This document shows positions 1,983 to 59,693 of a stretch of DNA of 64,000 nt, in pieces; position 1 is the first letter of the stretch, and each line of letters opens with the position of its first letter. A program made the translations under genes and the position numbers. The DNA is from Novosphingobium barchaimii LL02 (lineage in GTDB: Bacteria; Pseudomonadota; Alphaproteobacteria; Sphingomonadales; Sphingomonadaceae). The notes under the pieces are model-generated. The model saw nothing but the letters and a program-made list of their open reading frames with translations, made no database searches and had not been told where the DNA came from. The stretch is taken from positions 247,581-311,580 of the forward strand of contig NZ_KQ130457.1 in assembly GCF_001046635.1 (NCBI RefSeq). Reading direction: 5' to 3'.

Positions 1983-2004
1983 ATCGCAATGACGGCGTTG
2001 CAAT
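1983..2004. promoter_or_regulatory. Operator-like dyad, site 1
   Basis: ATCGCA-N10-TGCAAT, one mismatch to the window-wide pattern A(A/T)TGCA-N10-TGCA(A/T)T. It lies between the divergent CoA ligase and aldehyde dehydrogenase genes, 30 nt before the latter's ATG. Confidence 0.45.
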
Positions 2005-2033
2005 TCGAATATGAGCGCCCGGGAGAGTGCCAG

Positions 2034-3518
2034 ATGACCGCTACCACAAGCAGGCTTTCGTCGATCCGTCATCCAGACCGTTTTTATATCGGCGGCGAAT
2101 GGATCGCGCCTTCATCGCGCGGCATGATCGAGGTTTTCGACAGCGCGAGCGAGGATGTCTTCCTGACGGTGGCCGAAGCCCAGGCACCGGACGTCGAAGC
2201 AGCGGTAACCGCGGCGCGCCGCGCGTTCGACACCGGGCCTTGGTCGCGCCTGTCCCCTCAGGAACGTGCCGGGTACCTCAACCGGATCGCTGACGGACTG
2301 GCCGCGCGCAGTGACGAACTTGCCGACAGCTGGACGCAGGAGTCCGGCGTGCTGCGTTCGATGGCCGCTCATGCGGCCAACGGCCTCGCCGCCACGTTCC
2401 GCTATTACGCAAGCCTTGCCGATACCTTCGGATGGGAAGAAAAGCGCACATCCGCCTTCGGCCAGCCGGCGCTGCTGGTGCGCGAGGCGGTGGGGGTCGT
2501 GGCCGCCATCGTCCCTTGGAACGCTCCGGGCCAGTTGATGACGCAGAAGGTGGCACCGGCCCTCATGGCGGGCTGCTCGGTGATCGTGAAAGCCTCGCCC
2601 GAGGCGCCGTCATCGCCTTACATCCTGGCCGAAGTCTGCGAGCAAGCCGGCTTGCCGGCGGGCGTGTTCAACGTCCTGACAGCGGACCGCGAGGTTTCCG
2701 AGCTGCTGGTGCGCCACCCTGGCGTCGACAAGGTCAGCTTCACCGGCTCGACCCTGGCCGGCCGCCGGATCGCATCCATCTGCGGGGAGCGCATCGCGCG
2801 CTTCACGCTGGAGCTGGGCGGCAAGTCGCCGGCCATCATCCTTGACGACTACGATCTGGGCAAGGCTGCCGACGTGCTCGCCCGCAGCACGCCGGTCATG
2901 ACCGGCCAGGTCTGCGCTTCGCTGACCCGCGTGATCGTGGGAGACAAGCGGCACGACGATTTCGTCGATGCTCTTGCCGAGGCATTCGGCAAGATAAAGG
3001 TAGGCGACCCTTTCGATCCGGCCAGCCAGATGGGTCCTCTCGCGATCGAACGGCAACGCGATCGGGTCGAGCGTCTGATCGCGATCGGCCAGGAGGAGGG
3101 CGCGCGACTTGCCTGCGGGGGCGGGCGGCCAAACCATCTCAATCGTGGCTACTACATCGAACCCACCGTGTTCGCGGATGTCGATAACCAGTCGACCATC
3201 GCGCGCGAGGAAATCTTCGGTCCTGTGGTAAGCGTGATCCGTGCGGGCGACGAGGAACAGGCGATTGCGATCGCGAACGACAGTATCTACGGACTCAATG
3301 CCAGCGTATTCACGCACGATCCAGAGCGCGCTTATGCCGTGGGTCGCCGCCTTCGCTCGGGCACGGTGGGGCACAACGCTTTCAAGGCCGACTTCTCGAT
3401 CGCTTTTGGCGGCTACAAGCAGTCGGGCATCGGGCGCGAAGGTGGCGTCGAGGGCTTGCTCCCTTACCTCGAGACCAAGACGATGATCTTCGAGGACGCT
3501 CCTCTCGCCGCGCAATAG
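2034..3518 (+). CDS. NAD(P)+-dependent aldehyde dehydrogenase
   Basis: Oxidises an aldehyde to the acid. The 494-residue cytosolic protein has the ALDH hallmarks: cofactor-binding SFTGSTLAG, ELGGKSP with the general-base Glu at about 260, and the nucleophilic Cys at about 294 in TGQVCASL, the expected 34 residues apart, followed by EEIFGPVVSVI. The frame runs open upstream to 1905, but I chose the ATG at 2034 because GGGAGAG sits just before it and the family N-terminus (FYIGGEW) follows about 16 residues later. It could supply acid to the divergent CoA ligase, which is inference from position. Confidence 0.92.
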   Translation: MTATTSRLSSIRHPDRFYIGGEWIAPSSRGMIEVFDSASEDVFLTVAEAQAPDVEAAVTAARRAFDTGPWSRLSPQERAGYLNRIADGLAARSDELADSWTQESGVLRSMAAHAANGLAATFRYYASLADTFGWEEKRTSAFGQPALLVREAVGVVAAIVPWNAPGQLMTQKVAPALMAGCSVIVKASPEAPSSPYILAEVCEQAGLPAGVFNVLTADREVSELLVRHPGVDKVSFTGSTLAGRRIASICGERIARFTLELGGKSPAIILDDYDLGKAADVLARSTPVMTGQVCASLTRVIVGDKRHDDFVDALAEAFGKIKVGDPFDPASQMGPLAIERQRDRVERLIAIGQEEGARLACGGGRPNHLNRGYYIEPTVFADVDNQSTIAREEIFGPVVSVIRAGDEEQAIAIANDSIYGLNASVFTHDPERAYAVGRRLRSGTVGHNAFKADFSIAFGGYKQSGIGREGGVEGLLPYLETKTMIFEDAPLAAQ

Positions 3519-3585
3519 ACGGTGCGTTTCGGAGCTTGGCGCCGCAGTTGAAGAGGCCGCCTCCGTGCAAGCGGCGGTGATGTGC

Positions 3586-4389
3586 TCAGTCTTTCGAAAG
3601 CAGTGCGCGCAGATAGCGCACGCCGCGAGCGAGGGCGGCCTCTGCGCCCTCTGCGGCGATACGCGGACCGATCACTTCGAGATCGTAATATCCACGAAAG
3701 CCCGCCCGATGGATCAAGGGTATCAGCCGATCGAGCCGCGCCATGCCATCGCCCGGGATCGCGCGACAAGGCAATTCGCGGTCGCCGGCGATGTAATCGC
3801 TGACCTGCACGAGGGCGACATGAGGAGCGGCGGCCACGATCGCATCGTCGATATCGGCATCGAACCAGCAGGCGAAAACGTCGATTCCGATGTTAATGCC
3901 GGCGGCGCGCGCGATGCGTACCGTGTCCATGAGACGGTGTGCGATCGAGACGTCAGCATAAAGGTGCGAAGTCGGCTCAAGCGACAGGAGGATGCCGGCA
4001 TTGCGCGCCGTCAGGGCACAGGCGGCTATTTCGGAGGCGAAGCGCTCCACCGCAACGGCCCAGGTCAGGTCTCCGCGACCCCCGGTGGTTATCGTGATGG
4101 TCTTTGCGCCGATGGTTTCGGCGATAGCGATTGTATGACGTAATCGCTTCCGGGCAGCGCGGGCCTCATCCGGCGTGGCAAATCCGAATGCACGATGCGT
4201 GACGGTCGCAACCGCTAGTCCTGTCTCGCGCAAAAGCGAAGCGGCTGCTGCGATCCCGAAGTCTTCCACATCTTCCAACGTCGGGCTGATCGCCGCGACC
4301 CCCAGTCTGCGCACGAGTTCAATATGCCGGCTCAACGGGGCAGCAGGCAGGCATAGTGTATTGATCGAAATGGCGGGAAAAGGGGGCAT
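3586..4389 (-). CDS. Sugar phosphate isomerase/epimerase-like TIM barrel protein
   Basis: The 267-residue protein belongs to the xylose-isomerase-like/AP-endonuclease-2 TIM barrel family. Candidate metal ligands are spread over the strands: Glu in SLEPTSHLY near 145, Asp in IDVFACWFD near 175, QVSDY near 200 and Glu in YYDLEVIG near 240. Members are hydroxypyruvate isomerases, epimerases or lyases on small polar substrates, and the exact reaction is not readable here. It lies 45 nt downstream of the Rieske oxygenase on the same strand, so the two are probably co-transcribed. Confidence 0.75.
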   Translation of the reverse strand: MPPFPAISINTLCLPAAPLSRHIELVRRLGVAAISPTLEDVEDFGIAAAASLLRETGLAVATVTHRAFGFATPDEARAARKRLRHTIAIAETIGAKTITITTGGRGDLTWAVAVERFASEIAACALTARNAGILLSLEPTSHLYADVSIAHRLMDTVRIARAAGINIGIDVFACWFDADIDDAIVAAAPHVALVQVSDYIAGDRELPCRAIPGDGMARLDRLIPLIHRAGFRGYYDLEVIGPRIAAEGAEAALARGVRYLRALLSKD

Positions 4390-59387: not shown

Positions 59388-59492
59388 CAAGCTCTCTCCC
59401 CTCGGCCACGTACAGCGGTTCACTGCGAACCACTGCCATGACATCTTTAGCGATATGACCAAGCTGCCGCACCACATGCAGCACCCGTTTTT

Positions 59493-59514
59493 ATTACATA
59501 TGCCTATGTGCATT
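59493..59514. promoter_or_regulatory. Operator-like dyad, site 11
   Basis: ATTACA-N10-TGCATT, one mismatch, 106 nt upstream of the TonB receptor start (-). Confidence 0.45.
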
Positions 59515-59671
59515 CGCATTTTGCCGAGGCTTCGTCAATGCGGGGCTGCGCGGTGTCATCGCCTTGACCGAAAGGCGTGGCCAAGCTGCAACAATCCATT
59601 TTACAACCGGACTGGAGTGTTCTCATCAAGGCCGGGCGCCAGGAGATGAACCGATTTCCTTTATGAAGGAG

Positions 59672-59693
59672 ATTACATATCCAGAATTGCATT
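59672..59693. promoter_or_regulatory. Operator-like dyad, site 12
   Basis: ATTACA-N10-TGCATT, one mismatch, 78 nt upstream of the amidohydrolase start (+). Its spacer, like that of site 11, begins TAT. Confidence 0.45.

Follow-up and report, generated by a model that had tools for sequence, protein, structure and literature searches.

The locus and its dyad copies

We analyzed 64,000 nt of Novosphingobium barchaimii LL02 (contig NZ_KQ130457.1, positions 247,581-311,580; GCF_001046635.1), referred to here as the window. Our subject is a recurring 22-bp dyad, a putative operator, and its candidate regulator, a TetR-type protein that we call TetR-A. The window has a GC content of 63% and contains a steroid-type gene set: a KshA-like Rieske oxygenase (at 44235), a KstD-like flavoprotein (at 25058) that scored under the NCBIfam cut-offs, and a ChsH2-type OB protein (34693) with a lipid-transfer-type thiolase (35541). 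It also contains two flavin monooxygenases resembling Baeyer-Villiger monooxygenases (BVMOs), many acyl-CoA dehydrogenases, CoA ligases, two TonB receptors, and a BaiCD-like old yellow enzyme, again with a score under the cut-off. Judged from this gene content, the candidate growth substrate is a steroid or a similar polycyclic compound. Among the open reading frames (ORFs) of the window scanned with Pfam, the only regulators recognized were two TetR genes, tetR-A and a second that we call tetR-B. The locus spans approximately 150 kb in two related genomes (G001 and G208), and the window shows only part of it.

We searched the window for AWTGCA-N10-TGCAWT with up to two mismatches, using 100 dinucleotide shuffles of the window as background. 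There were 19 matches, compared with 5.84 expected (standard deviation 2.38; shuffle maximum 12). A first-pass annotation of this DNA had listed thirteen copies. All thirteen were found, each coordinate was right to the base, the arm spacing was 10 at each, and the scan confirmed the full matches at 18212, 20907 and 44143. The list was incomplete, however: of the six further matches, five were inside ORFs (8071, 23042, 35416, 37172 and 62142) and one (55858) was in the leader of tetR-A. The listed copies, the additional leader copy and the two TetR genes are given below; the dyads carry no strand.

1983..2004, putative operator dyad, 1 mismatch, between an acyl-CoA synthetase gene (364-1902, minus strand) and an aldehyde dehydrogenase gene (1905-3518, plus strand)
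5919..5940, putative operator dyad, 1 mismatch, between a Rieske oxygenase gene (4435-5832, minus strand) and a TonB receptor gene (5985-8372, plus strand)
6075..6096, weak and doubtful dyad, 2 mismatches, in the 5' end of the TonB receptor ORF
18212..18233, perfect putative operator dyad, upstream of a cyclase-family gene (18297-19367, plus strand)
20907..20928, perfect putative operator dyad, upstream of a flavin monooxygenase gene (19368-20843, minus strand)
22230..22251, putative operator dyad, 2 mismatches, between a major facilitator superfamily (MFS) transporter gene and an acyl-CoA synthetase gene (22268-24148, plus strand)
34988..35009, putative operator dyad, 1 mismatch, between a BVMO-like gene (32880-34853, minus strand) and the ChsH2-type OB protein and thiolase genes (ORF from 34693, plus strand)
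41254..41275, putative operator dyad, 2 mismatches, between an amidohydrolase gene (40344-41234, minus strand) and an acyl-CoA dehydrogenase gene (from 41388, plus strand)
44143..44164, perfect putative operator dyad, upstream of the KshA-like Rieske oxygenase gene (44235-45236, plus strand)
51172..51193, putative operator dyad, 2 mismatches, upstream of an acyl-CoA dehydrogenase gene (50101-51384, minus strand)
54925..55671, minus strand, tetR-A, proposed regulator with TetR_N and TetR_C_7 domains
55670..55691, dyad, 2 mismatches, proposed autoregulatory site overlapping the annotated tetR-A start codon
55858..55879, second dyad in the tetR-A leader, 2 mismatches, absent from the first-pass list
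59493..59514, putative operator dyad, 1 mismatch, upstream of a TonB receptor gene (56931-59519, minus strand)
59672..59693, putative operator dyad, 1 mismatch, upstream of an amidohydrolase gene (59771-61531, plus strand)
61437..62234, plus strand, tetR-B, TetR gene and rival regulator

The window-wide excess was located in gene leaders, because counts there were far above expectation. Strictly intergenic DNA (3,151 bases) contained 8 dyads, compared with 0.43 expected. Extending the search 150 bases into ORF starts gave 11 dyads (1.29 expected), and extending it 250 bases (14,295 bases in all) gave 13 (1.46 expected), namely 12 of the listed copies and 55858. The remaining listed site, 34988, lies beyond that margin, 295 bases into the longest ORF at its position. 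The earlier estimate of fewer than one chance match therefore holds for the strict gaps but not for the wider margins. Whether the copies mostly avoid genes, as had been stated, depends on the true start codons: six listed sites (1983, 6075, 22230, 34988, 51172 and 59493) are each within the 5' part of the longest ORF at their position. Sites with two mismatches are individually less certain: in the window, deep coding DNA contains 6 of them and the rest of the sequence 5. A total of about twenty, as had been suggested, slightly overstates the transcription units of the window, where the 13 listed sites correspond to roughly 13-16 units by our count.

Form and statistical standing of the motif

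We compared the window with regions of related genomes: G1 (G001:C4:120001-320000), G2 (G002:C45:1-80000), G2b (G002:C55:112000-146000), G3 (G003:C1:895000-974999), G208 (G208:C1:1105001-1265000), and G5 and G5b (parts of contigs C207 and C218 of G005). A motif search of intergenic gaps had been proposed in the first-pass annotation. We counted, free of assumptions about the motif, all exact 5-base inverted dyads with spacings of 0-20 in 409 non-coding segments (83,435 bases) from six loci (the window, G1, G2, G3, G208 and G5). AATGC-N12-GCATT ranked first, with 25 copies, and ATGCA-N10-TGCAT ranked second, with 11, runs of N aside; the two are one motif. In seven of ten random sets the leading dyad had 5-8 copies; in the other three, runs of N artefactually took first place.

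The arm spacing was also distinctive. In the window, G1, G2 and G3 together, 49 sites with at most one mismatch had a spacing of 10, and the runner-up, a spacing of 5, had 17. Sites with at most one mismatch gave the refined motif AWTGCAAY-N6-RTTGCAWT, a 22-bp pseudo-palindrome with A/T-rich flanks. We used these sites in place of an iterative weight matrix, which drifted toward AT-rich DNA and was discarded. In five regions, 47 of 52 such sites were outside deep coding DNA, that is, in 16-22% of the locus DNA. Sites with two mismatches were a mixture: the numbers outside and inside deep coding DNA were 14 and 23 in G1, 14 and 3 in G2, 2 and 3 in G3, and 7 and 2 in G2b. The dyad thus has what is expected of a regulon operator: sites stand before operons, beyond chance and with fixed spacing.

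There were seven pairs of overlapping dyads, offset by 14 bp. A three-arm ladder was considered and rejected: among 88 sites, a third TGCA at distance 14 was not clearly enriched (3 exact copies compared with a mean of 1.0, and 9 compared with 10.2 when one mismatch was allowed).

Conservation upstream of orthologous genes

Gene order is strongly rearranged among the window, G1, G2 and G3. Despite this, the dyad tends to move along with its operon, as judged from ortholog upstream regions. For window genes that bear a site, 29 of 61 such regions contained a dyad (two mismatches at most), where base shuffles predicted 0.85; the remaining window genes gave 18 of 126, where 1.65 were predicted. 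We kept only orthologs with at least 55% identity and at least 200 bases of DNA upstream; the best matches may include paralogs. The half-sites and the ten-base spacing were retained in orthologous gaps while inner bases changed, as the operator interpretation in the first-pass annotation had predicted.

Eleven of the 13 listed sites were backed by at least one such dyad in the relatives' regions. Counterparts with one mismatch were found for 1983 (G2 and G208), 22230 (G2), 34988 (G1, G2 and G5; the G2 gene is just 56% identical), 44143 (G2), 59493 (G1 and G208) and 59672 (G2b). The Rieske ortholog next to 5919 had a perfect upstream dyad in G1 and G208, one with a single mismatch in G2 and G3, and one with two mismatches in G5b. 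Site 41254 had counterparts with at most two mismatches in G1, G2, G3 and G208, and 51172 had a two-mismatch counterpart in G2. No ortholog upstream dyad was found for 6075 or 20907 in the relatives' regions examined.

Leaders of cyclase homologs gave a similar picture. Within 200 bp upstream, a dyad with at most two mismatches was present in 10 of 16 loci (L001-L016, from genomes G001-G006, G401-G409 and, for L013, G370). The dyad in L001 is identical to that in the window, and the inner bases differ in L003, L004, L005/L007, L011, L014 and L016. Two of these loci, L016 and L011, come from records titled as an actinobacterium and a Brevundimonas metagenome-assembled genome (MAG), and have a closely similar cyclase preceded by a perfect dyad; mis-binning or transfer is likely.

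One further gene in the window is unusual. A fused ADP-forming acyl-CoA synthetase (30793-32883; CoA-binding, Succ_CoA_lig and ATP-grasp_5 domains) lies beside several AMP-forming ligases, and its ortholog is approximately 80% identical in G1, G2 and G208.

Crowding of sites in the genomes of relatives

Genome-wide scans and specificity tests were made in the relatives' genomes, allowing at most one mismatch. The sites crowd in the locus, with 17-23 sites in the clusters of G001, G002, G004 and G208. In G208, 23 of 28 matches, including all 6 perfect ones, were within 145 kb (1,114-1,259 kb). The clusters held 18 of 29 matches in G004 (121 kb, 83-205 kb of C2; both perfect ones included) and 19 of 46 in G001 (168 kb, 133-301 kb of C4; all 4 perfect ones included). 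The 17 clustered matches of G002 (of 36) were split between the first 72 kb of C45 (14) and 119-138 kb of C55 (3). Smaller groups were seen in G407 (5 of 7 matches on the contig bearing the cyclase and TetR-A), G005 (9 of 20 on two contigs) and G003 (at least 8 of 24 within 57 kb, among the 19 matches listed). G006 had 19 matches genome-wide, G370 had 6, two of them sharing one contig, and G408 had 31, with at most 2 per contig.

A perfect match was present in 111 of 397 genomes of the family, with the most in G208 (6), followed by G247 (4). Near the cyclase homologs of L001-L014 there were 28 sites with at most one mismatch (none in L008 or L013); L015 had none and L016 had two. Across 64 loci from other bacterial groups, by title (L017-L080), there were 8. 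The pattern is thus not evenly spread through coding DNA or genomes, and in the relatives it is specific, genome-wide, for the pathway genes. These results and the conservation support the first-pass proposal of a transcription factor uniting many transcription units.

The second cluster of N. malaysiense (G002:C55:117-137 kb) contains the amidohydrolase and TetR-B pair found at 59771-62234 in the window, and the dyad is retained in front of the amidohydrolase gene, as in the window.

TetR-A as the candidate regulator

TetR-A has an N-terminal TetR_N helix-turn-helix (PF00440, E 6.1e-16, exceeding the gathering score) and a C-terminal TetR_C_7 domain (PF14246, E 5.3e-8), an all-helical ligand and dimer domain of the TetR type. 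Its AlphaFold model (mean predicted local distance difference test score, pLDDT, 82.6) has a predicted TetR fold, and the best Foldseek matches were TetR proteins. Orthologs with at least 53% identity were present in 14 of the 16 genomes behind L001-L016 (G001-G006, G370 and G401-G407). G408, which has no site cluster, has only a 35% relative. TetR-A is rare in the family: at E<=1e-40 it was found in 5 of 397 genomes (G002, G005, G006, G370 and G208). The first four are among the genomes behind L001-L016; in G208, many genes of the window have an ortholog. No match was found in a plasmid collection at E<=1e-20.

We found that the dyad is frequent upstream of tetR-A. In 17 upstream regions of 300 bp, 9 had a dyad with at most two mismatches, compared with 0.28 expected from base shuffles, and those in L118 and L138 were perfect. 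Two relatives with less than 50% identity had been dropped from this set, and some of its genomes are close kin and not independent. Across 17 orthologs (52-71% identity to TetR-A of the window), the helix-turn-helix, with its recognition helix region GVATRTLYQHF, is almost unchanged. Two copies of TetR-A are present in G402, 72% (C262:2530) and 67% (C181:11728) identical to that of the window.

The first-pass annotation had put forward two TetR proteins, at 54925 and 61518; the first (TetR-A) is favored over the second (TetR-B, ORF from 61437). Based on co-occurrence and the upstream dyads, TetR-A appears to be the best candidate regulator of the dyad set.

We consider it quite probable that a locus-wide regulon has the dyad as its operator and that TetR-A binds this dyad as a repressor. 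The steps we infer are as follows. A TetR-A homodimer would bind the dyad with one helix-turn-helix per arm, and would block transcription before catabolic, transport and CoA-ligase operons and of its own gene. The growth substrate or an intermediate would bind TetR-A and cause its release, so that the operons would switch on together. Proteins of the TetR family habitually repress. Together with the sites at its own gene and the operators over gene starts, this makes repression the most likely mode. In L005 and L007, read by eye, the putative operator covers both the cyclase start codon and a Shine-Dalgarno-like AGGAGAG, and in G2 one is at a predicted gene start (50538). Such positions fit a repressor; a classical activator would be misplaced there.

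Several observations weigh against this interpretation. Dyad positions vary from inside predicted ORF starts to approximately 150 bp upstream; the gene starts are themselves predictions, and with no fixed position the proposed mode of action is tentative. No dyad with at most two mismatches was present in 6 of the 16 cyclase leaders or in 8 of the 17 regions upstream of tetR-A. TetR-A was not found in G409, a MAG with a perfect dyad at the cyclase, nor at E<=1e-40 in G247, which has 4 perfect matches. The co-occurrence of TetR-A is confounded with presence of the locus, because any gene carried by the locus would co-occur. The relatives compared are related genomes and not independent samples.

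Other explanations

The dyad might be a real operator bound by another regulator encoded outside the window or elsewhere in the genome (of the LuxR, LysR, MarR or IclR type, or another TetR), either activator or repressor. We regard this as unlikely, though it is the strongest of the alternatives. The window covers only part of the roughly 150-kb locus, and a LysR-like gene in the G208 cluster has a one-mismatch dyad approximately 100 bp upstream. However, this LysR was found at E<=1e-40 in 4 of 8 genomes, and not in G002 or G003 despite their site clusters, so it is not favored as the general regulator. Of the three regulators traced, TetR-A alone occurs in nearly all genomes. The LysR-like gene (L125:2134-3084; G208:C1:1167137-1168084), recognized by inspection of its initial residues and not by a Pfam match, could belong to the regulon or be a second regulator.

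Control of the whole set by TetR-B is very improbable. TetR-B adjoins sites in the window and is in or near site clusters in G002 (C55), G208 and G407. However, at E<=1e-25 it was detected in 10 of 17 genomes, with no match in G401-G406 or G370, and it too is not favored as a general regulator. Loci from genomes in which it was not detected (L002, L003, L004, L005 and L009, from G401-G404 and G406) still have dyads with at most one mismatch, and G408 has TetR-B (51% identity) but no site cluster.

Chance pairing of TGCA in AT-rich leaders, or copies of one mobile repeat, would fit the threefold enrichment over the whole window, the 2-31 one-mismatch matches outside clusters in fully listed genomes and the many two-mismatch sites in coding DNA (23 of 37 in G1), but is scarcely credible given the single preferred spacing, the first rank in the unbiased count, the variable inner bases and the conservation in orthologous gaps.

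Implications and comparison with known systems

Returning to TetR-A, we think it fairly likely that this is an undescribed sphingomonad steroid-type regulon. In it, a single rare TetR repressor would control a heavily rearranged catabolic locus of 100-150 kb, and the arms of a 22-bp operator would stay fixed while operons reshuffle between species. To our knowledge, little is known of the regulation of steroid degradation in alphaproteobacteria beyond EdcR. The accessible parts of published sphingomonad steroid accounts propose local regulators. A shared operator would be a simple means to list pathway genes in sphingomonad genomes, unlinked ones included, and the set points to a testable regulator. 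A TetR-operator pair could also be used for steroid-type biosensors.

The papers compared here were available in part, and our statements refer to those parts. In Caenibius (Novosphingobium) tardaugens, the estradiol (edc) cluster is repressed by the TetR protein EdcR, for which a 23-bp operator, TnnCnnTACnAnTnGTAnnGnnA, has been predicted (PMC8700777). Like the system proposed here, it combines a sphingomonad steroid locus, a TetR repressor, and a palindromic operator predicted in several promoters, with a weaker copy at its own gene (PMC8700777). However, TnnCnnTACnAnTnGTAnnGnnA has neither the arms nor the spacing of the dyad, the C-terminal domain of EdcR is TetR_C_11 and not the TetR_C_7 of TetR-A, and four promoter regions are involved compared with a dozen or more here. 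In the window, TnnCnnTACnAnTnGTAnnGnnA was at chance level (2 matches with 2 mismatches, a count that 8 of 100 shuffles also reached).

EGO55_16300 is comparable as a TetR gene in a sphingomonad bile-salt locus (bsd I of C. tardaugens) for which palindromic operators, ATAGGGCCATTG and GCATGCGGGATGC, have been proposed (PMC12882949). These sites are unlike the dyad, and it is by operators, not by protein comparison, that we set this system apart. PheR, a repressor of phenanthrene genes in Sphingobium sp. SHPJ-2 with an essential core reported to be GCAACG, is also a sphingomonad catabolic repressor, and by our own count its footprint contains three TGCA cores (PMC13273656). It belongs to the IclR family, and its TGCA centers are 10 and 9 bp apart, compared with 14 in the dyad. 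The accessible parts of papers on progesterone (PMC12239570) and cholate (PMC8540908) name no such operator.

The helix-turn-helix of TetR-A matched that of Mce3R in sequence; Mce3R, which is associated with cholesterol genes, is a double TetR repressor and binds a non-palindrome (PMC11667970). The best sequence and fold matches of TetR-A, at 25-27% identity, were 3bhq and FrrA (6g87/6g8h), a TetR protein titled as flavonoid-responsive. The dyad operator was not found in the literature searched, chiefly open-access papers available in part, and on that basis it is apparently new; a TetR-type steroid regulon is a known kind of system.

Closest in kind are KstR and KstR2, the actinobacterial TetR repressors of cholesterol regulons, each of which controls many operons and is released by a pathway intermediate. 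KstR2 was a weak match to TetR-A in both sequence and fold. The actinobacterial proteins differ in their distant sequence, phylum and operator; the likeness is in the arrangement, with one TetR repressor over many steroid-pathway operons.

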